Under the pieces are notes generated by a model, which saw only the letters and a program-made list of their open reading frames with translations, was not told the origin of the DNA and searched no databases. A stretch of DNA of 64,000 nt from contig NZ_JAIGNS010000003.1 of NCBI RefSeq assembly GCF_019711615.1, forward strand, positions 124,001 to 188,000. Reading direction: 5' to 3'. Numbering within the stretch: position 1 is the stretch's first letter; every line of letters begins with the position of its first letter. The stretch comes from Qipengyuania intermedia. Lineage in GTDB: Bacteria > Pseudomonadota > Alphaproteobacteria > Sphingomonadales > Sphingomonadaceae. The position numbers and the translations under genes were made by a program. This document shows, piece by piece, positions 1,611-22,567 of this stretch.

Positions 1611-2241
1611 CTTTCCAGCCACGCGCCCTCGCCTTCGCGGCTTCGGCAGGCGAACCGGTGACGAATAGGGGCTCGTCCGCCCAGTCGAGCAAGGGTGCAT
1701 CGGCGAAGCTGTCGCTGAGAAACCGTACGTGCGCCGCATTCCGGTCGATGGCCTGTTCGGCAAACCATGCAAGGACGCGGCCTTTCTTCACTTCGCCATA
1801 ACAGTTCCCGCCAGGAATTTGCGAGCCGTCCCAGCGCGTTGCGATCAAATGTTCGAACCCTAGACGGGTGGCGAAAGCTTGGGCGTAGAAACCGAAAGCA
1901 GCCGTCGCCACCATCATTTGCGCGCCGGAATTGCGGTCTTCTTCGACCAGTTTCATGACCGCGGGCATCAGGCCCGGATGCCTGATGCGCGCCCCGGCAT
2001 AGTCTTCGCCGATCTCCTCCAACCGGTCGAGCCCGGTATTGCCGAGCATCAGCTTCATCCCGAAACGCTTGAGCGCGGTCCGTGAATAGAAACCCATGCG
2101 ATAGCCAATCATGGCAGCAATCCACACGGGCATGAAGCCAAGTCGCCAAGGCGCAATCCGCCGCGCCGCAAAGGCGAGAAACGGGGTAAAGGTCGGACGG
2201 CGGGTCAAAGTCCGGTCGAGGTCGTAAATCGCGATGTGCAC
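1588..2241 (-). CDS. HAD-IB family hydrolase (phosphatase)
   Basis: A 217-residue haloacid-dehalogenase superfamily protein. The DxDxT nucleophile motif DLDRT is at residues 7-11, and the later KKGR and FLSDSFADAPLL segments supply the lysine and metal-binding aspartates of a HAD phosphatase (IB subclass, SerB-like). Start: GTG at 2241 puts the catalytic motif at the extreme N-terminus as usual; an in-frame ATG at 2313 would add 24 residues with no recognisable content. A hydrophobic segment near residues 28-45 could associate with the membrane. The substrate is unknown. It converges on the glycerophosphotransferase-like gene with a 23-base overlap, so a link to polysaccharide or phospholipid metabolism is plausible but unproven. 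Confidence 0.75.
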   Translation of the reverse strand: MHIAIYDLDRTLTRRPTFTPFLAFAARRIAPWRLGFMPVWIAAMIGYRMGFYSRTALKRFGMKLMLGNTGLDRLEEIGEDYAGARIRHPGLMPAVMKLVEEDRNSGAQMMVATAAFGFYAQAFATRLGFEHLIATRWDGSQIPGGNCYGEVKKGRVLAWFAEQAIDRNAAHVRFLSDSFADAPLLDWADEPLFVTGSPAEAAKARARGWKVIDPLVP

Positions 2242-2362
2242 TTCGATGCGCTGCCATGTGCGTGTTTTGCACGCAAGTCCGCTGAAAATTGGCCGTTCCG
2301 GGCCTTGCGCCACTCGTACGAACCGCTAGATGGGTTGCGTAAAGCAACAGGATCGCTTGAAA

Positions 2363-3145
2363 ATGGCTACGTTTACCCTCCCCAAGAACTCCAAGATCAG
2401 CGGCAAGGGCCGTGCACACTCGGCAGACGGCGGAACGCGGGTAAAGAAATTCAAGATCTATCGCTATGATCCCGACAGCGGCGAAAACCCGCGCTACGAC
2501 ACTTTCGAGATCGATCTCGACGAGTGTGGCCCGATGGTCCTCGACGCGCTGTTCAAGATCAAGAACGAGATCGATCCCACGCTGACTTTCCGTCGCTCCT
2601 GCCGCGAAGGCATTTGCGGTTCCTGTTCGATGAACCTCAACGGCAAGAACGGCCTCGCCTGCACCACGGCGATCGACGACCTCAAGGGCGAAATCCGCAT
2701 CACCCCGCTTCCGCACATGGAAGTGGTGAAGGACCTGGTGCCCGATTTCACGCACTTCTACGCACAATATGCCTCGATCCGTCCCTGGCTGCAGACCGTC
2801 AGCCCGACGCCGAGCGGCAAGGAACGCCTCCAGACCCCGGAACAGCGCGAACAGCTCGATGGCCTTTACGAGTGCATCCTGTGCGCCTGCTGCTCGACCG
2901 CATGCCCCAGCTATTGGTGGAACTCCGACAAGTTCCTCGGTCCGGCAATCCTGCTTCAGGCCTATCGCTGGCTCGCCGACAGCCGCGATGAAATGACCGG
3001 CGAACGCCTGGACCAGCTGGAAGATCCCTTCCGCCTCTATCGCTGCCACACGATCATGAACTGCGCGAACGTCTGCCCCAAGGGCCTCAGCCCGGCAAAG
3101 GCAATCGCGGAAACCAAGAAGATGATGGCCGAACGCGCTATCTGA
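2363..3145 (+). CDS. sdhB: Succinate dehydrogenase iron-sulfur subunit
   Basis: A 260-residue SdhB, the electron-transfer subunit of complex II that passes electrons from the SdhA flavin to ubiquinone at the inner membrane. The [2Fe-2S] ligands are Cys80, Cys85, Cys88 and Cys100. The C-terminal [4Fe-4S] and [3Fe-4S] ligands lie in [12 protein letters not shown] (171-182) and [12 protein letters not shown] (228-239). Length is normal for alphaproteobacteria, including the N-terminal basic extension. Start: ATG at 2363 gives [10 protein letters not shown]; an upstream ATG at 2330 would add 11 atypical residues. sdhC, sdhD and sdhA are not adjacent: a divergent HAD gene lies upstream and a thioesterase gene follows. 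Confidence 0.96.
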
Positions 3146-3146
3146 C

Positions 3147-3617
3147 GTGGTTCTGCCCGACACCGTTTTCGAACATGGCCCCGATCCGGAGAACCCGGGC
3201 TGGCGGCACTGGAACCTGAAAGACCAGACCCTTTTCAACGGCGCCGTGATGGGCAAGCTCATCACGCGCGTCGACGAGGACGGGCGGTCGCGCCTGCGGA
3301 TGTTCCCGGAGCGCCGGCACGAGAACCTGCAGGGTATCATTCACGGGGCGGTTTCGCTGTCCCTGATCGACATCTCTCTTTTCACGACCATGCACACGAT
3401 CGGGACGGGTAATGCAGGCCCTTCGGTAACGCTGGAGCTATCCACCCAGTTCGTTGGCGGTGGCGATCCGAAACGACCGCTGGACGCGGTGTGCGAGATC
3501 GTGCGCGAGACCGGCAGTCTCGTGTTCGTGCGGGGTTCGGTCGTGCAGGAAGAAGATGTCATTTGCGCCTTTTCCGGCATCGTGAAGAAGATGCGCCCGC
3601 GCCCCCTCCCCCAATGA
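3147..3617 (+). CDS. PaaI-family hotdog thioesterase
   Basis: A 156-residue protein with the hotdog-fold pattern of PaaI-type acyl-CoA thioesterases. ENLQGIIHGAVSLSLID at about residues 62-78 is the helix that holds the catalytic region, followed by the strand PSVTLELSTQFV. Such enzymes hydrolyse acyl-CoA thioesters; the substrate here is not predictable. It begins with GTG one base after the sdhB stop and ends in a 4-base ATGA overlap with zapE, so the three genes are probably co-transcribed. A functional link to sdhB is not implied. Confidence 0.8.
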   Translation: MVLPDTVFEHGPDPENPGWRHWNLKDQTLFNGAVMGKLITRVDEDGRSRLRMFPERRHENLQGIIHGAVSLSLIDISLFTTMHTIGTGNAGPSVTLELSTQFVGGGDPKRPLDAVCEIVRETGSLVFVRGSVVQEEDVICAFSGIVKKMRPRPLPQ

Positions 3618-4729
3618 CCGGAATGCTTGCCCGCTACGAACGCCTGGTGGCGGCAGGCGAGTTGCAGCCCGATCCGGACCAGAGGCGCGCTGCAGAACGG
3701 CTCGACAGGCTCCAGAAGGACCTCGAGGCCGAAGAGCCAGGCGGTCTCCTCTCGCGACTGTTCCAGGCAAAGAAGACCCGGCCGCAAGGCGTCTACATGT
3801 GGGGCGGCGTCGGGCGCGGCAAGTCGATGCTGATGGACCTGTTCGTGGAGAGCCTTTCGATCGCGGAAAAGCGGCGCGTCCATTTCCATGAGTTCATGCT
3901 GGAGGTTGACCGCATGATCCGCGACGAGCGGGCCAAGGAAGCGGGAAATCCCATCGCACCTGTGGCTGCCCGGATCGCAAAGGACGTCCGTTGCCTCGCG
4001 TTCGACGAGATGGTGGTCAACAACACCGCAGACGCAGCGATCATGGCGCGCCTCTTCACCGCGTTGATTTGCGACGAGGGCGTGACCATCGTCACGACCT
4101 CTAACCGTCCGCCGAGCGATCTCTACAAGGACGGCCTGAACCGCTCCCTGTTCCTGCCCTTCATCGACCTCGTGCAGGCCGAACTCGATGTCGTCCCTCT
4201 CAACGGGCCGACCGACTATCGCCTCGACCGCCTCGGCGATCTGGCGACGTGGCACACGCCGCTGGGGGAAGACGCCACCGCGCAGGTCCGGGAGGCCTTC
4301 TTCCGGCTTACCGATTACGCGCCCGAAGATGCAGAGCACGTGCCTAGCGGCGAACTGGACCTTGGCGGAGGGAGAACCCTGCATGTGCCCAAAAGCTTCA
4401 AGGGCGTAGGCGTGTTCAGCTTCAAGCGCCTTTGCGGCGAGAATCGCGGCGCTGCCGATTATCTCGCCATCGCGCATGCCTATCACTCGGTGATCGTCGT
4501 CGGCATCCCGCGCCTGTCGCCGGAGAACCGCAACGAGGCGATCCGCTTCACCAAGCTGATCGACGCGCTATACGAAAACAGCGTGAAGCTGTTCGCAACC
4601 GCCGCCGCGGAGCCGGAAGACCTCTACACATCGGGCGATGGATCGTTCGAGTTCGAGCGGACCGTCAGCCGGCTGAAGGAAATGCAGAGCGCCGATTACA
4701 TGGCGCGGGGCCACGGGTTGGCGGGTTAG
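3614..4729 (+). CDS. zapE: Cell division protein ZapE (AFG1-like ATPase)
   Basis: A 371-residue AFG1/ZapE-family ATPase. Walker A is GGVGRGKS at about 64-71 and Walker B is CLAFDEM at about 127-133, followed by TTSNRPPSDLYKDGLNR, a family signature. In E. coli ZapE modulates the Z-ring; mitochondrial homologues act in protein quality control. It is cytoplasmic or peripherally membrane bound. Start ATG at 3614 overlaps the thioesterase stop (ATGA), which argues for translational coupling. Its stop overlaps the stop of the convergent amidotransferase gene by four bases. Length and motifs are complete. Confidence 0.93.
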   Translation: MTGMLARYERLVAAGELQPDPDQRRAAERLDRLQKDLEAEEPGGLLSRLFQAKKTRPQGVYMWGGVGRGKSMLMDLFVESLSIAEKRRVHFHEFMLEVDRMIRDERAKEAGNPIAPVAARIAKDVRCLAFDEMVVNNTADAAIMARLFTALICDEGVTIVTTSNRPPSDLYKDGLNRSLFLPFIDLVQAELDVVPLNGPTDYRLDRLGDLATWHTPLGEDATAQVREAFFRLTDYAPEDAEHVPSGELDLGGGRTLHVPKSFKGVGVFSFKRLCGENRGAADYLAIAHAYHSVIVVGIPRLSPENRNEAIRFTKLIDALYENSVKLFATAAAEPEDLYTSGDGSFEFERTVSRLKEMQSADYMARGHGLAG

Positions 4730-6624
4730 GCGCTCGGCCGCAGGTGGCGCAGCGAACGCTCCAGCATCAGCAACTGCCACAGGGTGCGACAGTTATCGGA
4801 CCGCCCTTCGATATGGTTTTCCGCGAGGCGGACAAGCGCACTGCGCTGGAACCAACCGCTGTCGACCAGCAGGCTGCTCGACGCGATCCGCCGCGCCTCA
4901 TCGGCCAGCGGACCGCGGAACCACTGCGCCAGCGGCGTCACGAACCCCTGCTTTTTCCGATAGAGTATGTCGTGCGGAAGATAGCGCTCCATCGTGTGCT
5001 TCATCAGCCATTTGCCGTCATTGCCACGGATGCGCTCACGCTGCGGTAGGCTAGCACCGAACTCGACGAGGCGATGATCCAGCAACGGCTCGCGTGCTTC
5101 GAGGCCGACTGCCATGCTGGTGCGATCGGTCTTGGTGAGGATATCTCCGGGCAGCCAGAATTTCAGGTCCGCATATTGCGCCCGGTCGAGGCCGGAACGC
5201 GCCGGTGCATCGCGCATCAACTGTTCGAAGGGCTGTTCGGCGCGGTACTCGCCGCGCGCCTTGAGCAGCGCGTCTCCGTAAAGGCCATCGCGCAGTTCCG
5301 GCGAAAGGATCGCAAGGGCGCGCGCATATCCGCTTTCCCCGCTTTCGGCCAAGGACAGCAAGGTCGTTTTCGCACGCAAGGGACGCGGTGCCCAGTCAGC
5401 CTTGGGCCACGCCTTGCCGAGCGCGCCGAATACAGCGCCTCTAAGCCTTGCCGGCAAGACCGAGCGGGCCTGTTCTTCCCTCAGCTGGAAGAGGTGGCGA
5501 CGGTAGCCTGCAAACGCCTCGTCCGCCCCGTCGCCGCAAAGGGCGACCGTCACGTGCTCCCTCGCCAATTCGCAGACCCGCAAGGTCGGGAGGGCACTTG
5601 CATCGGCAAAAGGCTCATCGAAAATCGAGGCGATGCGGTCGATCTCGCCGAACTGGTCGGCAGAGACTATGCGCTCGTGATGGTCCGTCGCGAACAATTC
5701 CGCCACCTTGCGCGCGTGTGCCGTTTCATCGACGCGTTCGACATCGAAGCCGATCGAGCAGCTCGTCACCGCGCGATTGCTCGCCTCGCTCATCAGGGCG
5801 ACGACCGAAGAGCTGTCCACCCCGCCCGATAGGAAGGCGCCCAACGGCACGTCTGCCACCATGCGGCTGGTCACACCTTCGCGCATCAGGTGCAGCAGTT
5901 CGGCGGAGCGGTCGGCGGTCTTACCCTTCGCCCTCGCCTCGAAGCTCACATCCCACCATCTTCTGGGCTCAGGCAGGGGCCGTCCGTGGTCGAGGAGCAT
6001 GAAATGCCCGGCCGGAAGCTTGGTGACATTCTTCAGGATCGCGCGGTGATCGGGTACAAAGCCCCAGGTCATGTAATCCTCGATCGCCAGCGGATCGATC
6101 TCACGCCGCATCATCGGATGGGCCAGCAAGCCCTTCAATTCGCTCGCAAAGCCCAATGCGCCTCCGGGAAGATGCGCCAGATACAGCGGTTTGACGCCCA
6201 GGCGGTCGCGCGCGATGAACAGCTGCCGCCTGTCATGGTCGTACAGTGCGAAGACGAACATGCCATCGAGGCGCGAAAGGCAATCCGGACCCCATTTCTG
6301 CCAGGCGGCAAGGATCGTTTCGGTGTCGCCTTCGGTGAGAAATTTGGCCCCGTCCTGCGCAAGCTGGCGGCGAAGCGTGCGGTAGTTATAGATCTCGCCA
6401 TTGAAGACGATCGTCGCGCGGCCATCTGCCGAATGCATCGGCTGCGGCGAGCCTTCGAGATCGATGATCGACAGCCTGCGATGACCGAGCCCTACGCCGG
6501 GCGCAGTCCATACGCCCGCCCCGTCCGGCCCCCGATGTGCAAGGGCCAGCGTCATCGCTTCGACCCGTTTGGGATCGACCGGCTTCACCGTCTCGTAATG
6601 GAAGATACCCGCGATCCCGCACAT
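4726..6624 (-). CDS. XrtA/PEP-CTERM-associated amidotransferase (asparagine synthase-like)
   Basis: A 632-residue class II glutamine amidotransferase. Cys2 of MCGIAGIF is the glutaminase nucleophile. RGPDGAGVW (31-39) and FNGEIYN (74-80) belong to that N-terminal domain, and the ATP-pyrophosphatase loop SGGVDSSS is at 266-273 in the asparagine-synthase domain. Size and context match the exosortase-type-1-associated amidotransferase family, thought to amidate a sugar or precursor of the exopolysaccharide rather than make free asparagine (inference from context). It is the last gene of the ten-gene minus-strand EPS run, 11 bases after exosortase A. Confidence 0.93.
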   Translation of the reverse strand: MCGIAGIFHYETVKPVDPKRVEAMTLALAHRGPDGAGVWTAPGVGLGHRRLSIIDLEGSPQPMHSADGRATIVFNGEIYNYRTLRRQLAQDGAKFLTEGDTETILAAWQKWGPDCLSRLDGMFVFALYDHDRRQLFIARDRLGVKPLYLAHLPGGALGFASELKGLLAHPMMRREIDPLAIEDYMTWGFVPDHRAILKNVTKLPAGHFMLLDHGRPLPEPRRWWDVSFEARAKGKTADRSAELLHLMREGVTSRMVADVPLGAFLSGGVDSSSVVALMSEASNRAVTSCSIGFDVERVDETAHARKVAELFATDHHERIVSADQFGEIDRIASIFDEPFADASALPTLRVCELAREHVTVALCGDGADEAFAGYRRHLFQLREEQARSVLPARLRGAVFGALGKAWPKADWAPRPLRAKTTLLSLAESGESGYARALAILSPELRDGLYGDALLKARGEYRAEQPFEQLMRDAPARSGLDRAQYADLKFWLPGDILTKTDRTSMAVGLEAREPLLDHRLVEFGASLPQRERIRGNDGKWLMKHTMERYLPHDILYRKKQGFVTPLAQWFRGPLADEARRIASSSLLVDSGWFQRSALVRLAENHIEGRSDNCRTLWQLLMLERSLRHLRPSA

Positions 6625-6635
6625 GGCGGAGTGCC

Positions 6636-7646
6636 CTAGACCAGACGCACCAGAACGGCAAAAGCGATTAGCACTGCTGCGATAGCTAGGCCGACACGCA
6701 CGGTAGAGGGCGCGCCGTCGAACCTCTCGAGGGTGGGGAATCCGCCAGCCTGCTCGGCGGTGAATCCTGCATCTTCAGGGTCGCGCTGGAACCAGCGCCA
6801 TGCCACGCCCAGCACCAGCGCGATCACGATACCGAAGAAGAACCAGCCATAGACAATGTGGTCGAAGCTACCCGCCGCCTCCGCGCCCACATATTGCGCG
6901 ATGAAGATAGTGGCCCAGGCCCTGATTCCATTGGCCATGATAGGCACGACCACACAGGCTAGAAGCAACCAGAACCGCCGCTTCCAGCTGGTGAAACAGG
7001 CGTGTGCCACAAGGATGCCGAGCGTCACCATCGCGATCAGGAACTTTACCCCGGAACAGGCCTCGGCAACGATGAACAGTCCGGCAGGCGTGTCTATGTA
7101 GATCCCATCCGAAACCGTTTCGATCCCGCTCGCGACCGTCAGCCAGGTGGTGATGTGCGCGGTAATAGCCTGCAGCTGCGGAATGATCTCGTCGCCGAAG
7201 GGCACCAGGAACGAGGAATAGAACAGCGGAAAGGCAAGAACGAGGCTCGCCCGCGTGCCGATCATGGCCATCGCTGCGCCTTGGAATGCGGCCAGCGTCC
7301 CTGCCTGCGCGATCAGATTGATGTCGAGTGCACGGCCCGCCAGCCAGACGGCAAGGCCGAGGGCCAGCCATACGAACCCGATCCAGCCTCCCGAGGGGCG
7401 AATTTTGCGCAATTCCTCACTTCGCAACCACACCAGCCAGGCGATAATCGCCGGTATGAGGAGGATGTGGCTGTAGGTGTCGATATTCCACCACTGGTGC
7501 GCCATGCGCGTCCATTCGCGAAATGTGAGAGCGAAGAGGGCCGCCCATGCGACAAGGACGCGCAGGACCGCGCCCGACCAGCCCCGCCCTTCCTGTGTCG
7601 GGCTCTCGGCAGAAGCGACGTCAAGCTGCACGGCTATTCTTACCAT
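6636..7646 (-). CDS. xrtA: Exosortase A, short form without EpsI domain
   Basis: A 336-residue polytopic inner-membrane protein of the EpsH/exosortase family, which cleaves the PEP-CTERM sorting signal of exported proteins. The catalytic triad is visible: Cys197 in AEACSGVKF, Arg242 in NGIRAW and His263 in DHIVYGWFFFG. About eight hydrophobic helices precede a final one at about 316-334, where the protein stops. Many sphingomonad XrtA proteins continue into an EpsI domain; here the stop at 6636 is followed directly by the amidotransferase, so that domain is absent. The start overlaps the glycosyltransferase gene by 26 bases, indicating one operon. Confidence 0.94.
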   Translation of the reverse strand: MVRIAVQLDVASAESPTQEGRGWSGAVLRVLVAWAALFALTFREWTRMAHQWWNIDTYSHILLIPAIIAWLVWLRSEELRKIRPSGGWIGFVWLALGLAVWLAGRALDINLIAQAGTLAAFQGAAMAMIGTRASLVLAFPLFYSSFLVPFGDEIIPQLQAITAHITTWLTVASGIETVSDGIYIDTPAGLFIVAEACSGVKFLIAMVTLGILVAHACFTSWKRRFWLLLACVVVPIMANGIRAWATIFIAQYVGAEAAGSFDHIVYGWFFFGIVIALVLGVAWRWFQRDPEDAGFTAEQAGGFPTLERFDGAPSTVRVGLAIAAVLIAFAVLVRLV

Positions 7647-8837: not shown

Positions 8838-9881
8838 CTAACCCAATCCGCGTGCAATCCACGGCCCGATCAGGTTCGCGACCGGCAGGGGCAATTTCTT
8901 CCAAAGCTCGATCTTGGCCGAATAGCCTTCGTCGGTCGGGTCGATATTGCGCGCCTCAACCCCCGGTGCAGTCCAGCGACGATAGGTGAGCGGCTCAGGC
9001 TCGAAGCCCCAGTTCTTCTTGAATGCAAAGGGGCCGCTACCGGTCTTGGAGCGACCGAAATCGAACCGGTCCATCCCCTTGCGGTGGGCGTGGCACATCA
9101 GTTCGTAATACATTCGCTCGTTCGCACGCAGGCCCCGCGCTTCCCAGCGGCCGCCGCCCCAATAAGGCATCACCGCCCCATCGTGATAAAGCGACAGAAC
9201 GCTCGAGATCGGGCGCCCCTCGTGCGACACCGTGAGGATGTCCGCGTCGTCCCCGAACGCATCGATCACGGCAGCAAACAGACTGCGCGGGAAGACCGGT
9301 GTGCCGAGGTTGCGGACACTTTCGGAATAGCACTGGTAGTGCGCCTCCAGATCCTGCTCGCTGCGACCGACAGTGATCTGCAGATCGTTTGCCAGGCCCT
9401 TGCGGACCTCTGCGCGCGCCTTGCGGGGGATGGAGAGGAGTTGCGCTTCGTCGTCGCTCTCAAGCGGGCGGATGAAGCCTGCATGCAGACCTTCGATCCG
9501 GTGCCAGCCTTTGCCCGCATCGGGCGCGCGCAGCTCTACGGTCGAGACGCTGTTCCGCATGGCGAGTTCGGCAGCGGAGGCGAGGAGCGCCTCTAGCACC
9601 CGTCCATCGGCAAACAGGGGGCCACCCCCGACCGCGAAACCGCTCGATACCAACGCCCTGCCAAACAGCGGCGAATGGACGTCGCTCAGCGGCAACCACC
9701 CGCAAATCGCACCGCTGAGTTCCGCGACCAATCCCAAGGCCTTCTGACCGGTGCCCGCTTCTATCGCGGCCAGCCATGTGGGACGCTGAAACACGTTGCC
9801 GTTCCGGTCGCGCACGAAATCCTCGATGCGAGCGCGATCCTTCGCGCTGCCGAGATCTGAAAGCGCGACAGATACATTCAT
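8838..9881 (-). CDS. FemAB-family XrtA/PEP-CTERM-associated protein
   Basis: A 347-residue protein of the FemAB/GNAT-like acyltransferase fold as found in exosortase A clusters. Two GNAT-like halves are recognisable, with NVFQRPTWLAAI near the N-terminus, KARAEVRKGLAN mid-protein and MDRFDFGRSKTGSGPFAFKK near the C-terminus, a strong family signature. FemAB relatives transfer aminoacyl or acyl groups; the substrate in this system is unknown. Start is uncertain: ATG at 9881 gives the usual N-terminus, while GTG at 9899 would overlap the deacetylase stop by four bases (GTGA) and add six residues. It is 2 bases from the glycosyltransferase gene. Confidence 0.88.
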   Translation of the reverse strand: MNVSVALSDLGSAKDRARIEDFVRDRNGNVFQRPTWLAAIEAGTGQKALGLVAELSGAICGWLPLSDVHSPLFGRALVSSGFAVGGGPLFADGRVLEALLASAAELAMRNSVSTVELRAPDAGKGWHRIEGLHAGFIRPLESDDEAQLLSIPRKARAEVRKGLANDLQITVGRSEQDLEAHYQCYSESVRNLGTPVFPRSLFAAVIDAFGDDADILTVSHEGRPISSVLSLYHDGAVMPYWGGGRWEARGLRANERMYYELMCHAHRKGMDRFDFGRSKTGSGPFAFKKNWGFEPEPLTYRRWTAPGVEARNIDPTDEGYSAKIELWKKLPLPVANLIGPWIARGLG

Positions 9882-9895
9882 GGCGACAGGTGCAT

Positions 9896-10768
9896 TCACG
9901 CAGCCCAGTCCATGGCGCGATCGCGTTCGATCCCGGCAATCTCGTCCATGCGACCCCAGGCAAAATCCTCCAGCAGGTCGCCAAGCTTGCCGGCCATGCG
10001 CGAAAGATTGGTGTAATGCCGCAGGCGCGAGCGCAGCGGCGCCTCGGCAACGCGCGGTTGCTCGGGGTCGATTTCCCAGGGGTGGAAGTAAAAAATCGCA
10101 GGGCGGCCTTCGTCCCGGTTGACCTGTCGGATAGCCCAGCGGCTGAAGCCATAGGGAAGCACGCGGAAGAACCCCCCGCCTCCCGCCGCCAGCCTGCGGT
10201 TGGCAAGCACGGCGGTGGTCACGGGGATTTCGACGAGGTCGCTGCCCGCGACCGGATTGAAGGCAAAGCGCGGGGCATCGGGCCAACCGTAATGGTCATG
10301 CACCACCGGCGCGACGCTGGAGGAATAGGCGTAGCCGTGCTCGGCCAGGACCTCGTGGGCCCAGGCGTTGCGCGCATCGATGGAGAAGCTCGGCGCGCGA
10401 TAGCCGGTGATTGCGCACCCGCCCGCGTCCTCGAGGATGGCGCGCGATTTCGCGAGATCGTCGGAAAACTGCTGCCGCGTGAAGGTGAACACCCGCGTGT
10501 GGTCATAGCCATGGCTGGCGAGTTCGTGACCACGCTCGACGATATCCCGCATGGCGGCCTTGTTGCGCTCGGCGATCCAGCCAAGCGTGAAGAAGGTCGC
10601 CTTGACGCCAGCGTCGTCGAACAGATCGAGGATGCGCGCCACATTGTCGGCGACGCGCAGTTCCAGCCCGTCCCAATCTTCGCGCTTGAGGGTCTTTTCG
10701 AAAGCGCCCACCTGGAACCAGTCCTCGACGTCGACCGACAGGCCGTTGACGATATCACCCGGTTTCAT
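9896..10768 (-). CDS. XrtA system polysaccharide deacetylase
   Basis: A 290-residue NodB-type carbohydrate esterase (CE4), exosortase A subgroup. SVDVEDWFQ at 11-19 contains the catalytic/metal aspartates, HELASHGYDH at 81-90 the zinc histidines, and TGYRAPSFSI the conserved arginine motif. It probably removes N-acetyl groups from polysaccharide repeats. Start: ATG at 10768 is preceded by a strong GGAGGGG with a 6-base spacer, better than GTG at 10792, which would overlap the ATPase stop. The length suits the family. It follows the ATPase gene and precedes the FemAB-like gene in the same run. Confidence 0.92.
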   Translation of the reverse strand: MKPGDIVNGLSVDVEDWFQVGAFEKTLKREDWDGLELRVADNVARILDLFDDAGVKATFFTLGWIAERNKAAMRDIVERGHELASHGYDHTRVFTFTRQQFSDDLAKSRAILEDAGGCAITGYRAPSFSIDARNAWAHEVLAEHGYAYSSSVAPVVHDHYGWPDAPRFAFNPVAGSDLVEIPVTTAVLANRRLAAGGGGFFRVLPYGFSRWAIRQVNRDEGRPAIFYFHPWEIDPEQPRVAEAPLRSRLRHYTNLSRMAGKLGDLLEDFAWGRMDEIAGIERDRAMDWAA

Positions 10769-10788
10769 GGACGCCCCCTCCGACGCCG

Positions 10789-11985
10789 TCACGCCGCTTC
10801 GCGGGTTCCGGTCGACTCGAAATAGTCGATCATCATGGTCAGCACGTGACGCAGCGAACGCTCCTGATCGTCGAGGCGCTGCTCGATGGCGGAGAGGCGC
10901 TGGTCGATGTCTTCCGGAAGAGCACCGCCACTATCCTTGGTGGCGGCAAGCTTTTCAACCTCGCGGCGCAGCGCCGCCATGTGCTTGTCCCGCTGGGCGA
11001 AAGCGCCTTCGATCGCTTCGATCTGGTGATCGAGCAGCCCCTTCTTGCGCGCCGCCGTATCGGCCTGGGTCATCGCCGGGGCAGCTTCCGTCCGTGCCTT
11101 GGCGATCGCATCCGACGCGGGCAGGTTGCGATCCGGGCGCGCACGCTGCGGAGCCTCTTGTGTTTCTGCAGAGGCATCGCCGCTCATCTCTTCGATCACC
11201 GCATCGAGCATATCGACTTCGAGCATCGACTGTTCTTCCAGCGAGCCCATCAGCAGCAGGCGGTTCATCACCTGGTTGACCTTGCGCGGGATGCCCAGGG
11301 TTGCCTTGTGGAGGCGCGGCCAGATCGCACTGGCGAATTCGGGATTGCCCGTCCAGCCAACATGCTCGAGCCGGTGGGTAACGTAGGGCTCCATCTCGCC
11401 CGGTTGCATGGGCTCTAGATGGTGCGCCGCAATCACGCGCTGGCGTAGCTGTTCGAGCTCGTCCGACTGGGCGAGCAAGTGCTTGAATTCCGGCTGGCCC
11501 AGCAACAGCGTCTGCAAGAGCGGGTGAGAGCCGAGCTGGAAGTTCGACAGCATTCGCAATTCTTCGAGCGCGCCGATGGACAGGTTCTGCGCTTCGTCGA
11601 CGATCAGCAGGACACGGCGGCCGCCGCGCGCTTCTTCATGGAGGAACAGTTCAATAGCGGCGAGCGCACTCGCCTTGTCGCCGCCTTCGACATCGAGGCC
11701 GAAGCTGCGCGCCGCGACGTGGATCATCTCCTCGCCGTCGAGCGCGCTGGTCACGACTTCGCCCACGGTCATGCGGCGTTCGTCGAGCTTCTGCTTGAGA
11801 TGCGCGACCAGCGTGGACTTACCCGCACCGACTTCGCCCGTGATGACGACGAAGCCTTCCCCCTGATTGAGGCCATAGCCGAGATAGCTCAGCGCCTTCT
11901 TGTGGGTGATGCTTTCGAAATAGAAAGCCGGATCGGGGGTGAGCTGGAAAGGGCGCTCGGTAAAGCCGTAGAATTCCTCGTACAT
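10789..11985 (-). CDS. XrtA/PEP-CTERM system-associated AAA ATPase
   Basis: A 398-residue GspA/ExeA-like AAA ATPase found in exosortase A loci. The N-terminus MYEEFYGFTERPFQLTPDP is characteristic; Walker A GEVGAGKST is at 50-58 and Walker B VLLIVDEAQ at 124-132. After the ATPase core comes a charged, alanine-rich linker and a predicted coiled coil at about 325-385, which could mediate oligomerisation. Its role in EPS export or protein sorting is not experimentally clear. It lies 13 bases downstream of the beta-barrel gene and is cytoplasmic or membrane-peripheral. Confidence 0.93.
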   Translation of the reverse strand: MYEEFYGFTERPFQLTPDPAFYFESITHKKALSYLGYGLNQGEGFVVITGEVGAGKSTLVAHLKQKLDERRMTVGEVVTSALDGEEMIHVAARSFGLDVEGGDKASALAAIELFLHEEARGGRRVLLIVDEAQNLSIGALEELRMLSNFQLGSHPLLQTLLLGQPEFKHLLAQSDELEQLRQRVIAAHHLEPMQPGEMEPYVTHRLEHVGWTGNPEFASAIWPRLHKATLGIPRKVNQVMNRLLLMGSLEEQSMLEVDMLDAVIEEMSGDASAETQEAPQRARPDRNLPASDAIAKARTEAAPAMTQADTAARKKGLLDHQIEAIEGAFAQRDKHMAALRREVEKLAATKDSGGALPEDIDQRLSAIEQRLDDQERSLRHVLTMMIDYFESTGTREAA

Positions 11986-17011: not shown

Positions 17012-18238
17012 TCAAATCAGGACTTCCGCCGCGGGTCCCTGCCCTAGGAATGCGCTGGGAGAAGCGCTCGCGCCATAGGCTCCCGCGCAGAAAACGGCGA
17101 CCAGATCGCCGACTTCCGCGCGCGGCAGGAAAGCTTGGTCGGCCAGCCTGTCGAGCGGGGTACAAAGGCAGCCCACGACGTTGACCTCTTCGGACGGCTC
17201 GTCTCCGAAGCGATTGGCGATGGCTACCGGATAATTGCGACGGACCACGGTCCCGAAATTGCCCGATGCCGCGAGTTGGTGGTGAAGCCCTCCGTCGGTC
17301 ACGAGATAGGTCTGACCGTGGCTTTCCTTCCGGTCGATGATACGGGTGATGTAAACACCGGCTTCACCCACGATGTAACGACCCAGTTCCACGAAGAGAT
17401 CGGCTTCCGTCAAGCTTTCCGGAAGCTTTTTCAATCTCTTGTCCAAGGCTTCTCCCACCGAATCAAGATCGAGAGGCTCGTCGCCATGAAAATAGGGAAT
17501 GCCGAAACCCCCGCCCATGTTGAGCTTGGGCAACTCGACCTGGGCTTCCCGCGCCAATCTGTCCGCCAGCTCAAGGATATTCCCCTGTGAATCGACAATC
17601 GCATCCGCGCTCAGGGCCTGGCTGCCGGTGAAGATATGCAGGCCCCGCCATTCGCAACCTGCATCTACGATAGTCCGGATCAACGCGGGAACGCGCTCGG
17701 CATCGACGCCGAAGGGTTTGGCGCCGCCGCCCATCTTCATTCCTGAGCCCTTGAGCTCGAAATCCGGATTGACCCGCACCGCTAGCCGGGGAGTCTTCCC
17801 GACACGCTCCGCAATATCGAGGGCACGCGATGCTTCGTTCTCGCTTTCGAGGTTGAGGGTAACCCCTGCCGCGATCGCCGCTTCCAGTTCCGCGTCACGT
17901 TTGCCGGGACCCGCGAAACTGATGCGCGTACCGTCGATACCAAGCTGCTGAAGCATCTCCAGCTCGCCTCCGGAAGCGATGTCCAGGCCATCGACCAAAC
18001 CCGATACGAATTCGAGAAGAGGAGCGTAACTGTTTGCCTTGATTGCGTAATTGATCTTTATCCGATCGGGAAGTGAAGCGCGCAAATGCGCGATCCTGCG
18101 CTCGATCAGGGTCCTGGAATAGGCGAAGAAGGGTGTCCGTCCGGCCTTCGCCTCCATCTCAGCAAGTCCAACGCCGCCTGCCGCAAGCTCGCCATCGACG
18201 GCCTCGAAGCCGTGGGGGATCGGTCCGGTGGGCTTCAT
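17012..18238 (-). CDS. PLP-dependent decarboxylase, exosortase A system-associated
   Basis: A 408-residue fold-type III PLP enzyme related to diaminopimelate and ornithine decarboxylases. Lys67 in INYAIKANSY is the Schiff-base lysine, and the barrel contains NMGGGFGIPYF (phosphate-binding glycine loop). The C-terminal beta domain has VGCLCTPLD and AVFCAGAYGASASP, with the Cys and Tyr/Ser positions of the second active-site half. It is the exosortase-A-associated subgroup; the amino acid substrate is unknown and the product could feed the adjacent AMP-ligase/ACP enzymes (inference). Its ATG overlaps the ligase stop by four bases, indicating coupling. Confidence 0.92.
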   Translation of the reverse strand: MKPTGPIPHGFEAVDGELAAGGVGLAEMEAKAGRTPFFAYSRTLIERRIAHLRASLPDRIKINYAIKANSYAPLLEFVSGLVDGLDIASGGELEMLQQLGIDGTRISFAGPGKRDAELEAAIAAGVTLNLESENEASRALDIAERVGKTPRLAVRVNPDFELKGSGMKMGGGAKPFGVDAERVPALIRTIVDAGCEWRGLHIFTGSQALSADAIVDSQGNILELADRLAREAQVELPKLNMGGGFGIPYFHGDEPLDLDSVGEALDKRLKKLPESLTEADLFVELGRYIVGEAGVYITRIIDRKESHGQTYLVTDGGLHHQLAASGNFGTVVRRNYPVAIANRFGDEPSEEVNVVGCLCTPLDRLADQAFLPRAEVGDLVAVFCAGAYGASASPSAFLGQGPAAEVLI

Positions 18239-19788
18239 GTCTCGATTTCCTGCTTGATCGCGGTCCGGTCGATCTTGCCGTTCGGATTGAGCGGCATGGT
18301 GCCCCGCCAGTGATAGGCATGCGGTTGCATGAAATTCGGCAATTCGCGCGCAAGCTGGCGTTTCAATTGCTTTTCCAGTTCATCGGTAGGTCCTGCCTCC
18401 TGGGGCCGGGTAACGAGGTGGATGGCGTGGCCAAGCTTGGGATCGGCGATGCCGAACGCGACCGCTTCCGCAACAAGTCCGGTCGAGAGCGCGGCGTTTT
18501 CGATCTCCTGCGGGCTGATACGGTTTCCTGCGCTCTTGATCATCGCGTCGCGGCGTCCGACGAAATAGAGCAGCCCATCATGGTCGCGCCTGACCCTGTC
18601 GCCGGACCATACGGCAACGCCGCCATATCGGGAGGAAGCGGGGGCAGGCTTGAACCGTTCCGCCGTGCGAGCTTCATCCTGCCAGTAGCCTTGGGCAACG
18701 AGGGGACCGCAATGCACAAGCTCGCCCTCCTCGCCAGCAGCGGCGAGTGCACCTTCGTCGTCGATCACGAGTATCTCCGCGAAGGGGATAGCTTGACCCA
18801 TCGAAGTCGGATGCGTGTCCACCAGCGCGGGATCGAGGTAGGTAGACCGGAACGCCTCCGTCAGGCCATACATCGGAAATAGACGCGCATCGGGGAACAT
18901 CGCGCGCAGGTCTGCGACCAGATCCTCCGTCAAAGCCCCGCCGCTGTTGGTCATCCTGCGCATCGATGCGACAGCTTCAGGTGGCCATTCTAACTCGGTG
19001 AGCTGCACCCAGAGAGGCGGGACTGCCGCGAGCGTCGTCACCGCGTGCCGGGCGCAGGCCTTCACGACGTCCTTGGGGAACAGGTAATCGAGCGGGACTA
19101 CGCAGCCGCCTGCATACCAGGTGCTGAGCAGCTGGTTCTGCCCGTAGTCGAAACTCAACGGCAGCACGGCAAGCGTAACGTCGTCCGCCTCCATGCCAAG
19201 GTAATGGGCGACCGAAACCGCACCCAGCCACAGGTTTGCATGGCTGAGCATCACGCCCTTGGGCGCGCCGGTCGATCCGCTGGTGTAGAGAATTGCAGCC
19301 AATTCTTCGGGGTCCCGATCCGAAGGACCTAGCGACTGACCGACCGCACTCGCCAAAGACGACACCTCGTCTTCCGCAACCACCTCGCAATGCGGCGGGA
19401 TGTCACCGGGTTCCAGCGATTTGAGGCGTGCAGCAGTGGCTACCAAAAGGCACGCCCCGCTGTCATGCAGGATATGCGCAACCTGGCTATGCTTGAGCAG
19501 CGGATTGATGGGAACGTGGATCATTCCTGCCCGTGCCGCAGCGAGGGGCAGGAGGCAGGTGAACTCTCCCTTCGCGGCCCAGCTGGCGACGCGCGATCCT
19601 TCTTCGCATTTGCTCGCCAGCCAGCCAGCGAGCAGTGATACGCTTTCACGAAGCTGCGCATAGGTCAGCACCTTGTCTCGCAGCACGAGCGCGCATGACT
19701 GTGCATCGCCCAATTCGGCGAGTTGATCCAGCGGTTGCGGCGTGGGATCAGGCTGGAGCGATCCAGGCGGGGAGTTACCGGTGGTCAT
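18235..19788 (-). CDS. Acyl-CoA ligase (AMP-forming), exosortase A system-associated
   Basis: A 517-residue ANL-superfamily adenylating enzyme. The phosphate loop ILYTSGSTGAPKG is at about 167-179, MYGLTEAFRSTY is the A5 motif, and GDRVRRDHDGLLYFVGRRD with MIKSAGNRISPQEIE forms the A7-A8 hinge. It should activate a carboxylic acid as an acyl adenylate, then load it onto CoA or onto the ACP encoded on the other strand (inference). Start: ATG at 19788, with GTG immediately before it at 19791. Both lie inside the 5' end of the divergent acyltransferase gene, which starts at 19781. Confidence 0.92.
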   Translation of the reverse strand: MTTGNSPPGSLQPDPTPQPLDQLAELGDAQSCALVLRDKVLTYAQLRESVSLLAGWLASKCEEGSRVASWAAKGEFTCLLPLAAARAGMIHVPINPLLKHSQVAHILHDSGACLLVATAARLKSLEPGDIPPHCEVVAEDEVSSLASAVGQSLGPSDRDPEELAAILYTSGSTGAPKGVMLSHANLWLGAVSVAHYLGMEADDVTLAVLPLSFDYGQNQLLSTWYAGGCVVPLDYLFPKDVVKACARHAVTTLAAVPPLWVQLTELEWPPEAVASMRRMTNSGGALTEDLVADLRAMFPDARLFPMYGLTEAFRSTYLDPALVDTHPTSMGQAIPFAEILVIDDEGALAAAGEEGELVHCGPLVAQGYWQDEARTAERFKPAPASSRYGGVAVWSGDRVRRDHDGLLYFVGRRDAMIKSAGNRISPQEIENAALSTGLVAEAVAFGIADPKLGHAIHLVTRPQEAGPTDELEKQLKRQLARELPNFMQPHAYHWRGTMPLNPNGKIDRTAIKQEIET

Positions 19789-20767
19789 CACGGTCAGCTA
19801 TCACGACACGGTTACAAAACTGCAAGGGCTCGGCAGCCCCGAGGCGGGACCTTTCGACCGATATGAATGGTACCGCCTGCTCGAAACGCATGGCGCGAAG
19901 CCGCTGGTCGCGGTCGGCACCGACGGTGAAAGAACCCTCGCCGTTCCTCTGATGCGCGGATCGAAGGGCCTCGAGCCACTCACGAATTGGTTTGCATTTT
20001 CCTGGAGGCCCGTTGCGAAAGGTGAGGACACCACGCGCATCCTCGTCGAGATCGCTCACGACCTGAAAAAACATACGCATCGACTGGACCTGTTCCCGCT
20101 GACGGCGGAGGACGGATGTTACCAGCAGCTTTGCCAGGCATTCGAGCATGCCGGCTGGTCGGTTCATGGAGAGCAATACGACAAAAACCACGTGCTTCAT
20201 GTCAATGGCCGCAGTTTCGCTGAGTATTGGGATGGCCGCCCTGGCCGGATGAGATCTACCGTCAAGCGCAAGGCCTCCAAGGTAGACATTCAAATATCCA
20301 ATGTCTTTCAATTAGATGAGTGGGAAACCTACCGCTGGATCTACGACCGTAGCTGGAAACCCATCGAAGAGCGCGCCGATATCCTCGAGGCGTTCGCTCG
20401 CCTGGAAGACAGCCGCGGAGCATACCGCCTTGGCATTGCACGGATCGATGGCGAACCCGTCGCGGCCCAATTCTGGAGCGTCGAGAGCGATATGGCCTTC
20501 ATTCACAAACTCGCCCATCTCGAGAGTGCTCAACCTTACTCGGCAGGCACGGTACTTTCTGCGGCCCTATTCAAGTACGTAATCGACGTCGATCGCGTCG
20601 GCCTGATCGACTTCGGGACCGGTTCCGATGCTTACAAACGCGACTGGATGGACGAGAGACGTCCCCGCTTTCACCTGACCTGTCTCGATATCAGGCAGCC
20701 GGCTGCCTGGCCGGCGCTGGCCAAGAGGATGCTGGGCCGCCTTGCACCGCGCAAGGCGCAAGGCTAA
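19781..20767 (+). CDS. GNAT/FemAB-like acyltransferase, exosortase A locus
   Basis: A 328-residue protein of the BioF2-like/FemAB type GNAT fold. A first half ends near WDGRPGRMRSTVKRKASKV, and a second half contains RIDGEPVAAQFWSV, the acceptor strand, and VGLIDFGTGSDAYKRDWM, which parallels the DFGRSKTGSG-type motif of the FemAB-like protein at 8838. It likely transfers an acyl or aminoacyl group; the adjacent ACP is a candidate donor (inference). GTG at 19781 has GGGGAG upstream with a 6-base spacer and gives a natural N-terminus. The 5' end overlaps the divergent ligase start. Confidence 0.85.
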   Translation: MVITVSYHDTVTKLQGLGSPEAGPFDRYEWYRLLETHGAKPLVAVGTDGERTLAVPLMRGSKGLEPLTNWFAFSWRPVAKGEDTTRILVEIAHDLKKHTHRLDLFPLTAEDGCYQQLCQAFEHAGWSVHGEQYDKNHVLHVNGRSFAEYWDGRPGRMRSTVKRKASKVDIQISNVFQLDEWETYRWIYDRSWKPIEERADILEAFARLEDSRGAYRLGIARIDGEPVAAQFWSVESDMAFIHKLAHLESAQPYSAGTVLSAALFKYVIDVDRVGLIDFGTGSDAYKRDWMDERRPRFHLTCLDIRQPAAWPALAKRMLGRLAPRKAQG

Positions 20768-20804
20768 GGCGGCCTCCGCTTCAAGAGGGGAACCTTTCAG
20801 ACCT

Positions 20805-21104
20805 ATGGGCGAAACCGCCACATCCCAGCCGACCGGTCCGAGCCGTACCGCCATCGACACCGCCCTGCGGTCGATCATGTCCGACGTGCTGGCGCTCGAC
20901 CCCGAACAGGTTGCCGAATTCGACGGCGACACCGGCTTGTTCGGCCACCTGCCCGAACTTGATTCCATGGCTGTGGCGACGCTACTCACCGAAATGGAAG
21001 ATCGCCTCGATATCATCATCGAAGATGACGATGTCGACGGGGAGATGCTGGAAACCTACGGCGCGCTGCTGGCCTTTGCCGAGGCCAAGGTCATCGAAGG
21101 CTGA
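20805..21104 (+). CDS. Acyl carrier protein, exosortase A locus
   Basis: A 99-residue acidic carrier protein. Ser54 in LPELDSMAVATLL is the 4'-phosphopantetheine attachment site in helix II context, and the rest is helical and rich in Asp/Glu. It is a secondary, cluster-specific ACP rather than the fatty-acid AcpP, whose motif is usually DSLD. It probably carries the acyl group activated by the ligase at 18235. ATG at 20805 follows AGAGGGG at about 11 bases. It sits between the acyltransferase and hydrolase genes in the same direction. Confidence 0.9.
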   Translation: MGETATSQPTGPSRTAIDTALRSIMSDVLALDPEQVAEFDGDTGLFGHLPELDSMAVATLLTEMEDRLDIIIEDDDVDGEMLETYGALLAFAEAKVIEG

Positions 21105-21116
21105 GCGCGCGCTGCC

Positions 21117-21797
21117 GTGTTCATAGATTGGCCCGCCCCGCTGCCCGATGGCGGGACGAGCATGGAAATGGCGGTTTCCACGGCCCGCAAGGATGAGCCG
21201 GAACTCCTTATAATCCCGCCGCTGTTCGAGGAAGCCAACCGCATGCGTGCGCAACTGGTCCTGATGATGCGCATGCTGCAGGACCTTGGCATATCCAGTG
21301 TGATGCCCGACCTGCCGGGTATGAACGAAAGCCTTCGACCACAGGCATCGCAAACCCTCTCGGCATGGCGTGCCGCAGCCGCCTCCGCGGCGAAACATTT
21401 CGGCGTCAGGCACGCACTTTACGTCAGGCAGGCTTGTGTGCTCGATACAGGAACGGCTCCGGCTTCCCATTACGCGCCGTCGGAACCTTCGAAGCTCTTC
21501 AGAGCAATGGTCCGTGCCCAAAGCCTCGCCGAAAAGGAGGCAGGCAAGGACCGCACCGCATCCCAGATCCTCGACGCAGCAAGCGTCCAAGGCGATCTGG
21601 TCGCCGGATGGGACATCGGGCGCACCATGGCGCAGGAGCTTTGCGAAAGCGCGGAGGTCACCAATGAAGCCGCCACGCCGATCACTCACGAGGAGATCGG
21701 TGGGCGTCCCCTCTGGCTCAGCAACGAGGGCGGCGTCGACGAGAGACAGGCGCAAGCGTTGGCCAAAGTTCTTGCGGAACGGATAGGCACCCGATGA
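21117..21797 (+). CDS. Hydrolase 2, exosortase A system-associated (no visible nucleophile)
   Basis: A 226-residue alpha/beta-hydrolase-like protein. PPLFEEANRMR at about 34-44 and the strand SSVMPDLPGMNESL correspond to the PPFxEExNxxR and DLxGxGDS signatures of the exosortase-type-1 ortholog 2 family. Where the nucleophile elbow should be, the sequence reads LYVRQACVLD, so no GxSxG is seen, and no clear catalytic His follows. It may be a non-catalytic or scaffolding partner of hydrolase 1. GTG start at 21117 lies 12 bases after the ACP stop; the end overlaps hydrolase 1 by four bases. Confidence 0.82.
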   Translation: MFIDWPAPLPDGGTSMEMAVSTARKDEPELLIIPPLFEEANRMRAQLVLMMRMLQDLGISSVMPDLPGMNESLRPQASQTLSAWRAAAASAAKHFGVRHALYVRQACVLDTGTAPASHYAPSEPSKLFRAMVRAQSLAEKEAGKDRTASQILDAASVQGDLVAGWDIGRTMAQELCESAEVTNEAATPITHEEIGGRPLWLSNEGGVDERQAQALAKVLAERIGTR

Positions 21798-22567
21798 GCC
21801 GCCTCCATCTCGCATTCCATTGCGGTGGCCTCAGCCTCGGCGGAACACTGGATAATGCGCCGGGAACGACCGGTTTGCTCATCGTGACGGGTGGGCAAGA
21901 GCCCCGTGCGGGGGCGTTTGGATGGCAGGCTCGTCTTGCGGCAGAGGTGGCAAAGGCCGGCTTCCCGGTCTTCCGCTTCGACAGGCGGGGGATCGGAGAC
22001 AGCGAAGGCGAAGATCGCGGTTACGAAAGGTCCCGCAAGGACATCGCGTCCGCGCTGCAGGCGTTTCGCGCTCTCTCACCCCAGGTGAACCGCGTGGTCG
22101 GGTTCGGAAACTGCGACGGTGCCGCTGCACTCATGCTGGCGGGGGGTTCGGGGTTCGATGCCCTCATCCTGAGTAACCCCTGGGCGATTGCGGACACTTC
22201 CGATTTGCTACCGCCTGCCGCCACCGTCCGATCGCGCTATATGGCAAAACTTGCCAAGCCGAAGGAAATCTGGCGCCTGCTGAGCGGCAAGGTCGATCTC
22301 GATAAGTTGGCAACCGGTATTCGCCACGCGTCCGGAACCGGCCAAACGACCAATCCCCTCATCGCGCCCTTGCGGGAAGGTCTTTCGAAATTCGAAGGCA
22401 GGGTTCTCTTCCTCATCGCCGGGAACGACCGGACAGCGCAGATCTTCGCGGCCGATTGGGGACCCGACGAGCGTATCGCCTGCTGCGGATCGGCTGGCCA
22501 CGCATATGCCGAACCGCACGCCCGCGAATGGCTTCGTGCGCAGATACTGGCGGCGCTTCGCTCCTAG
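21794..22567 (+). CDS. Hydrolase 1, exosortase A system-associated (Cys nucleophile)
   Basis: A 257-residue alpha/beta hydrolase. The nucleophile elbow is GFGNCDG with Cys107 in place of serine; Asp212 in AGNDRTA and His236 in SAGHAYA complete the apparent triad. The oxyanion region follows VTGGQEPR, and FDRRGIGDSEG at about 62-72 is the usual strand 4 motif. It matches the exosortase-type-1 ortholog 1 family. A Cys elbow suits acyl transfer or thioester cleavage, so ACP offloading is an attractive role (inference). Its stop codon shares a CTAG with the stop of the convergent methyltransferase gene. Confidence 0.9.
   Translation: MSRLHLAFHCGGLSLGGTLDNAPGTTGLLIVTGGQEPRAGAFGWQARLAAEVAKAGFPVFRFDRRGIGDSEGEDRGYERSRKDIASALQAFRALSPQVNRVVGFGNCDGAAALMLAGGSGFDALILSNPWAIADTSDLLPPAATVRSRYMAKLAKPKEIWRLLSGKVDLDKLATGIRHASGTGQTTNPLIAPLREGLSKFEGRVLFLIAGNDRTAQIFAADWGPDERIACCGSAGHAYAEPHAREWLRAQILAALRS

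Follow-up and report, generated by a model that had tools for sequence, protein, structure and literature searches.

What chemistry is encoded by six genes that lie about 10 kb from exosortase A (XrtA) in the alphaproteobacterium Qipengyuania intermedia? The genes occupy positions 17012–22567 of a 64,000-nucleotide stretch of contig NZ_JAIGNS010000003.1 (hereafter the window), where we confirmed all six open frames in two back-to-back arms, as a first-pass annotation of the sequence had described them. They encode a fold III decarboxylase that depends on pyridoxal phosphate (PLP), an ANL ligase, a predicted acyltransferase of the GNAT type, a dedicated acyl carrier protein (ACP) and two proteins of the alpha/beta-hydrolase type, hereafter hydrolase 1 and hydrolase 2. 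Measured against the curated scores of the "exosortase A system-associated" NCBIfam families, the decarboxylase (TIGR03099, cut-off 478), the ligase (TIGR03098, 592) and hydrolase 1 (TIGR03100, 168) pass, and hydrolase 2 fails TIGR03101 (202.75).

We propose that these genes encode an aminoacyl-ACP pathway working like the BtrI/J/K module of butirosin and the VinL/N/O module of vicenistatin. The ligase would adenylate an amino diacid at its side-chain carboxyl and load it onto the dedicated ACP, L-aspartate being the likeliest substrate and L-glutamate a less likely one; the decarboxylase would then remove the alpha-carboxyl on the carrier, giving beta-alanyl-ACP or, from glutamate, 4-aminobutyryl-ACP (the group of 4-aminobutyrate, GABA). 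Where it is present, the Fem-like tandem-GNAT protein would take the amine-bearing group off the ACP and attach it to an acceptor. Our first guess for the acceptor is a glycan, and the likeliest candidate is a sugar of the exopolysaccharide that the same cluster produces. Hydrolase 1, with its cysteine nucleophile, and an apparently dead hydrolase 2 would perform or assist the acyl transfer, or edit mischarged ACP. We infer each reaction, the identity of the amino acid and the acceptor from gene content, conservation, fusions, residues, predicted folds and co-occurrence. The core of the scheme, loading and then decarboxylation, is one we hold with some confidence, and the scheme as a whole seems to us probable; transfer by the GNAT protein to a polysaccharide or its precursor we put at slightly less than an even chance. 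Both of the latter estimates are slightly reduced by how few of the named loci described below have polysaccharide neighbours.

The grouping of these genes is more than chance, since their relatives are likewise grouped in nine loci from the order of the window (L064–L072) and in named, mostly betaproteobacterial records. Among 80 such named loci, which are often cut by contig ends, the ligase is found in 80, the decarboxylase in 78, the ACP in 64, hydrolase 1 in 46 and hydrolase 2 in 45, and ligase and decarboxylase are separated by less than 300 bases in 67 of 78. Sixteen have no ACP nearby; all ten of these that were checked genome-wide encode it elsewhere, within 2 kb of hydrolase 1 in eight of the nine genomes searched for both. 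Across 249 genomes of the window's phylum (thresholds E <= 1e-15 for the dedicated ACP and E <= 1e-30 for hydrolase 1), the decarboxylase over its cut-off and the dedicated ACP mark an identical set of 14 genomes, and the ligase is over its cut-off in 13 of them, falling below it in G270. This agrees with the earlier suggestion that the ligase belongs with the dedicated ACP, and we refer to ligase, decarboxylase and dedicated ACP together as the trio. When matches under the cut-offs are admitted, the ligase turns up in seven more genomes at E <= 1e-150, two of which score above G270, and the decarboxylase in 13 more at E <= 1e-100; six genomes belong to both groups. Low-scoring ACP-like frames in the loci of the seven ligase genomes (L056, L057, L059–L063) make a divergent branch of the module probable; the ligases there retain the Asp and Arg discussed below.

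The phosphopantetheine serine of the window ACP (codon 20964–20966, within PELDSMAV) is kept in 78/78 sequences. The only solved structure that matches this ACP is PDB 2lki (E 7e-12), labelled "putative uncharacterized protein", which we take to be holo-ACP NE2163 of Nitrosomonas europaea and possibly a member of the same ACP family. The holo structure of NE2163 is mentioned in PMC4249514. Two loci (L113, 11602–12275; L137, 11531–12308) hold two small frames between ligase and decarboxylase, which to the eye look like toxin–antitoxin pairs (PHD/PIN-like and MNT/HEPN-like).

The ligase offers clues to what is loaded. Its core fragment best matches PDB 3wv4/3wvn at 107 bits, entries labelled non-ribosomal peptide synthetase (NRPS) that are presumably VinN, and the next protein matching in a single stretch reaches 67 bits. 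The residues aligned to the VinN triad have the spacing (69 and 32) of the published VinN numbering, and Asp215, Ser283 and Arg315 of the window ligase stand at the positions of VinN Asp230, Ser299 and Arg331. Over 102 ligases scoring >= 450, the window's included, these positions hold Asp in 102/102, Ser or Thr in 101/102 (one Ala) and Arg in 102/102. As a control, the nine other ANL enzymes of the window's genome have the Arg in 0/9 and the Asp in 1/9, and six lower-scoring ligase-like rows outside the 102 have the Asp in 4/6 and the Arg in 0/6. In VinN, Arg331 is the proposed recogniser of the alpha-carboxyl and the Asp is the amino-group residue. An invariant Arg for the alpha-carboxyl indicates that this carboxyl is still in place at loading, which fits a BtrK-like decarboxylase acting later, on the ACP.

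These residues also bear on whether the genes carry out ordinary acyl-CoA/ACP lipid chemistry, in which an activated fatty acid would acylate an amine supplied by the decarboxylase. The NCBIfam name "acyl-CoA ligase" and matches of the ligase to long-chain acyl-CoA ligase models speak for such chemistry, as does a publication by Craig et al. from 2011 that, by its title, reportedly links N-acyl amino acid synthases to the PEP-CTERM system. Yet neither the Asp for the amino group nor the Arg for the alpha-carboxyl varies in these ligases, and both are, one Asp excepted, missing from the genome's nine other ligases. Among solved structures the ligase core comes closest to VinN and to NRPS adenylation domains, and we give lipid chemistry very little credence.

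The preferred order, loading and then decarboxylation, can also be examined from the side of the decarboxylase. Its best PDB match is BtrK, the L-glutamyl-[BtrI acyl-carrier protein] decarboxylase of butirosin (231 bits, E 1.8e-67), followed by a diaminopimelate (DAP) decarboxylase (151 bits, E 3.1e-43). Besides the window enzyme, our alignment comprised 25 relatives, BtrK, the Aquifex enzyme and, from the window's order, 11 LysA-like frames that were usable; it contained no VinO sequence. At the conserved Cys, the window enzyme, BtrK and 25/25 relatives read C-T-[PST]-x-D, as opposed to C-E-[ST]-[GS]-D in 12/12 usable rows of the DAP-decarboxylase type, and a tree places BtrK and the relatives on one side of a fully supported split and the 12 DAP-type rows on the other. 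(One long branch of the tree, LysAlike_L234, is a mis-extracted frame, which the counts exclude.) By match, motif and tree the window decarboxylase thus appears nearer to BtrK than to DAP decarboxylase, with C-T-x-x-D replacing C-E-x-x-D. According to passages of PMC7857480, BtrI-S-glutamate is decarboxylated by BtrK, and passages of PMC11284099 have VinO decarboxylating a VinL-bound substrate.

The first-pass annotation had placed decarboxylation before loading. On that reading the decarboxylase would first make a free amine-bearing acid (beta-alanine, GABA or lysine, for example), which the ligase would then activate and load; the relatives of the decarboxylase in the PDB mostly bear names that refer to free amino acids, and gene order alone leaves the order of reactions unfixed. 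However, the closest relative, BtrK, is ACP-dependent, the alpha-carboxyl Arg found in 102/102 ligases would be pointless with that carboxyl already lost, and VinN recognises 3-methylaspartate and not the decarboxylated acid, as passages of PMC11284099 report. With BtrK and VinN/VinO all pointing to loading first, the earlier order is probably wrong, and we judge a decarboxylase acting first to be quite improbable.

For the step after decarboxylation the candidate is the GNAT protein, which has no NCBIfam match at E <= 0.001 and, in a profile search against PDB sequences, a single match at E 0.64. Its AlphaFold model (pLDDT 82, pTM 0.82) adopts a tandem-GNAT fold over most of the chain. Foldseek with this model placed FemX at the top (E 2e-13), ahead of MprF-type lysyl/alanyl-phosphatidylglycerol synthases; aminoacyl-tRNA-dependent peptide synthases came further down. 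In VIA-align the leading matches were FemX 6snr at Z 20.1 (rmsd 4.5, 286 aligned) and peptide synthases of the Sbb17 type (Sbb17 at Z 19.8; 3.0, 260), and MprF 7duw stood at Z 16.9 (3.3, 262), with FemX, the aminoacyl-tRNA-dependent peptide synthases and MprF spanning Z 20.1 to 15.8 overall. GNAT and ACP share one open frame in one of 100 loci surveyed for fusions (L065) and in two of 15 further loci picked mostly for long frames (L208, L209). These fusions suggest that the donor is aminoacyl-ACP and not aminoacyl-tRNA. In the outline of ligase, ACP and acyltransferase drawn by the first-pass annotation, the pairing of ligase and ACP therefore survives and the GNAT probably does take its acyl group from the ACP, given the fusions and the FemX-like model; it is the sequence of reactions that is probably wrong.

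A second family, with what we read as GNAT-like motifs, lies directly upstream of ligase, decarboxylase and ACP in Micromonospora costi (L177), in a metagenome-assembled genome of the Streptosporangiaceae (L188) and in G251, a genome of the window's class (L054). It also occurs in the named loci L117, L126, L132 and L160 and, weakly, L063; its members in L177, L188, L054, L132, L126 and L063 have no Pfam match, and the window GNAT does not match its profile. Among the neighbours are a polysaccharide deacetylase (L177, L054), a glycosyltransferase (L177) and a Wzy-type polymerase (L188, and below cut-off L054), with other glycosyltransferases recognised by eye in L188 and L054. The ligases of the two actinobacterial loci (L177, 9058–13014; L188, 9037–13134) are 58–60% identical to our first query, from G165, and their ligase–decarboxylase–ACP sets look horizontally transferred.

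The remaining two genes had been described as two hydrolases, a description we find doubtful. In hydrolase 1 the nucleophile is a cysteine: Cys107 is kept in 51/53 sequences, Asp212 in 52/53 and His236 in 51/53, with gaps scored as misses. VIA-align with its model (pLDDT 83.5) gave the DcsB thioesterase at Z 23.1, feruloyl/cinnamoyl esterases tied with it (a cinnamoyl esterase at Z 23.0) and GrgF at 22.2; DcsB and GrgF use cysteine. GrgF is an alpha/beta-hydrolase-fold enzyme that fuses chains, according to a review passage. Hydrolase 1 could possibly be an acyl-ACP transferase or an editing thioesterase. Hydrolase 2 has no nucleophile in 56/56 sequences: Arg occupies the nucleophile elbow in all of them, Arg104 and Arg133 are both found in 56/56, and hhalign sets the elbow Arg column on Cys107 of hydrolase 1 at 97% probability. 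The two proteins are fused in three of the 100 loci (L058, L130, L160), and the simplest reading of these sequences is a catalytic and a non-catalytic partner working as a pair. The analysis suggests that the NCBIfam names are wrong for acyl-CoA ligase and for hydrolase 2, which would be better described as an aminoacyl-ACP ligase and a non-catalytic partner.

At 25 bits against a TIGR03101 cut-off of 203, hydrolase 2 of the window would be missed by automatic annotation, yet its place in the cluster is the expected one, and it has the residues that are invariant in our family alignment (A5, its own row included). Scores against the hydrolase 2 profile run from 70 to 142 in L064–L067 and L070–L072, compared with 180–253 for nearly all named loci. 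Searched over the genomes, profile A5 overlooked the hydrolase 2 of G047 (present in L072) and gave four matches outside the set.

Hydrolase 1 occurs in 12 of the 249 genomes, exactly those with the trio and with XrtA over its cut-off; it is absent from G153 and G161, which have XrtA and no trio, and from G030 and G251, which have the trio and no XrtA. Nine of the 12 belong to one family, so this pattern rests on few independent events. As a marker of the overlap between trio and XrtA, hydrolase 1 holds in the 249 genomes and is weakened by a sample of 24 named trio genomes picked for having no hydrolase 1 nearby, 12 of which have none anywhere.

How tightly is the pathway tied to exosortase A and the cell surface? 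In the window and in L064–L072, all of the window's order, the relatives of the six genes are embedded in an exopolysaccharide/XrtA cluster. Strict dependence on exosortase A was rejected, since XrtA and the trio each occur without the other in two of the 249 genomes, and the suggestion that the pathway decorates PEP-CTERM proteins remains unproven on the same count. One of these genomes, G030 (L201), belongs to the window's family and has the complete trio along with the deacetylase and the ATPase. It has neither an XrtA match at E <= 1e-40 nor a hydrolase 1 match at E <= 1e-30, and FemAB has no match in the L201 stretch; G030 so offers a natural test of the role of the trio without sorting. 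Among the named loci, an XrtA-type amidotransferase is found in 13/80 and XrtA is within reach in only one (L163), so that its absence from L177 and L188 means little.

The same surroundings help to weigh whether the trio makes a diffusible small molecule, or whether hydrolase 1 is a thioesterase that frees beta-alanine or GABA, in either case with no link to the surface. Vin and Btr modules serve secondary metabolites, hydrolase 1 has a full Cys-Asp-His triad with a thioesterase and, tied with it, esterases as its top structural matches, and core XrtA/exopolysaccharide genes scoring over 100 bits are within reach of only three of the 80 named loci (L163, L176, L179). Set against this are the genes of the window and of L064–L072, which sit inside an exopolysaccharide/XrtA cluster, the trios with a polysaccharide deacetylase (in L177 and L054) or a Wzy-like polymerase (in L188) nearby, and the trio genomes G030 and G251, from which hydrolase 1 is missing. 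On balance we think a diffusible product unlikely.

If the group does reach a glycan, a deacetylase may prepare the site. One is found in several trio clusters (window, G030, G251 and Micromonospora), and we conjecture that it could free an amine that is later acylated. Gram-positive sortases join proteins to cross-bridge amines put in place by Fem enzymes. By analogy, a beta-alanyl or GABA group on a glycan or lipid might be the missing amine nucleophile of exosortase A, which ACP, GNAT and hydrolase 1 would install and to which XrtA would join PEP-CTERM proteins. The idea draws on the confinement of hydrolase 1 to the 12 genomes with both trio and XrtA (0/4 with one alone) and is weakened by the two XrtA genomes without the trio, by the nine of 12 in one family and by the 12 of 24 trio genomes without hydrolase 1; it is highly improbable.

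Several observations weigh against the aminoacyl-ACP pathway as we have drawn it. Ligase and decarboxylase point to different acids, the likeness to VinN to aspartate and that to BtrK to glutamate, and BtrK forms a long branch in the decarboxylase tree that the program flagged as unsure. Acetyl-CoA-dependent tandem GNATs, glucosamine N-acetyltransferases among them, also match the GNAT model at a lower Z of about 13 to 15, so the fold alone leaves the donor unsettled, and known Fem-like enzymes use aminoacyl-tRNA as donor. The window-type GNAT is patchy, scoring over 200 in 20/80 named loci and being found in 91/149 genomes of the window's family. With cluster genes near so few of the named loci, the trio mostly travels apart from the XrtA cluster, and the evidence for a surface link comes from the window's order and a few polysaccharide contexts. 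Half of the 24 named trio genomes chosen as above do without hydrolase 1 altogether, and we know of no counterpart of hydrolases 1 and 2 in the Vin or Btr modules. No enzyme assays for these families were found in the openly licensed literature.

The likeness to characterised systems is partial in each case. With vicenistatin VinN/VinL/VinO and the proposed bolagladin BolO/BolC/BolN, the window has in common an ANL ligase with the Asp230/Ser299/Arg331 set, a standalone ACP and a PLP decarboxylase, and the vicenistatin module loads before decarboxylating in the characterised system, the order predicted here. Unlike those modules, the window genes lie in an exopolysaccharide/exosortase cluster and include no polyketide synthase among the six; the likely transferase is a Fem-like GNAT, and a Cys-dependent protein of the alpha/beta-hydrolase fold is added with its apparently dead partner. 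To butirosin BtrI/BtrJ/BtrK the window is closest in the sequence and motif of the decarboxylase, and a small dedicated ACP is common to both. Butirosin relies on BtrJ, an ATP-grasp ligase, on protection by a second glutamate and on a different acyltransferase; nothing of this kind was identified among the six window genes. In the Dlt system (DltA/DltC/DltB/DltD), a ligase and a carrier protein charge an amine-bearing group for a cell-surface polymer; a Pfam search of the six genes found no MBOAT protein such as DltB (the rest of the genome was not searched), and the window differs in its additional decarboxylase and its likely transferase of GNAT fold. With FemX and MprF the window GNAT has the tandem-GNAT fold in common at about 12% identity, and its predicted donor is aminoacyl-ACP.

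To our knowledge, aminoacyl-ACP decarboxylation is described only from antibiotics and lipopeptides. We found no published chemistry for the exosortase A-associated families in the openly licensed literature, nor relevant work joining exosortase A with a decarboxylase and an ACP. Passages of PMC9850573, PMC3684757 and PMC8092127 give no chemistry for these families, and the words decarboxylase, ligase, hydrolase and acyl carrier do not occur in the full text of PMC1569441 (Haft 2006). The use of an aminoacyl-ACP module within an envelope cluster, alongside a Fem-like transferase and a pair of Cys hydrolase and pseudo-hydrolase, thus appears undescribed in the openly licensed literature that we searched.

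The features of the locus are collected in the table. On the minus arm the ligase precedes the decarboxylase with an ATGA overlap; the plus arm runs GNAT, ACP, hydrolase 2, hydrolase 1, the last two likewise overlapping by ATGA. Since the frames called for ligase and GNAT overlap in divergent orientation, their exact starts are uncertain.

Table. Genes of the predicted aminoacyl-ACP pathway and selected genes of the neighbouring XrtA cluster, in window coordinates.
Feature	Position	Strand	Remarks
Decarboxylase, BtrK/VinO-like, fold III PLP, TIGR03099	17012..18238	-	586 bits; predicted ACP-bound aminoacyl substrate
ANL ligase, TIGR03098, start uncertain	18235..19791	-	637 bits; predicted isoaspartyl- or gamma-glutamyl-[ACP] synthetase
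Tandem-GNAT, predicted Fem-like aminoacyltransferase	19742..20767	+	PF13480; start probably GTG 19778
Dedicated ACP	20805..21104	+	PF00550; start best placed at ATG 20805
Hydrolase 2, TIGR03101-like, alpha/beta-hydrolase-like, without nucleophile	21117..21797	+	25.2 bits, far under cut-off
Hydrolase 1, TIGR03100, alpha/beta-hydrolase fold	21794..22567	+	212 bits; Cys107-Asp212-His236
Context: exosortase A (XrtA)	6636..7646	-	TIGR03109, 309 bits
Context: FemAB-family XrtA-associated protein	8838..10286	-	TIGR03019, 316 bits; PF13480
Context: XrtA system polysaccharide deacetylase	9896..10792	-	TIGR03006, 421 bits
Context: XrtA/PEP-CTERM system amidotransferase	4726..6624	-	TIGR03108, 910 bits

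To the right, the neighbouring frame 22564–23790 matches RlmD models, which places the end of the cluster at 22567. To the left, the XrtA cluster encodes an export protein, a chain-length protein, a tyrosine kinase, an ATPase, the polysaccharide deacetylase, the FemAB-family protein, a glycosyltransferase, XrtA and the amidotransferase, together with a frame that weakly resembles an outer-membrane protein family. Three large frames at its left edge (273–1610, 1523–3340 and 3341–4486) match nothing in NCBIfam or Pfam at the thresholds applied; homologues of the latter two adjoin the trio in G030 (L201).

Taken as proposed, four NCBIfam families so far labelled only by their association with the exosortase A system become one testable reaction sequence. 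It predicts that many environmental bacteria build an amine-bearing group on a carrier protein, with surface glycans as a possible destination. If this is true, aminoacyl-ACP decarboxylation would enter cell-envelope biology, and the pathway would give a concrete handle on the acceptor of exosortase A.

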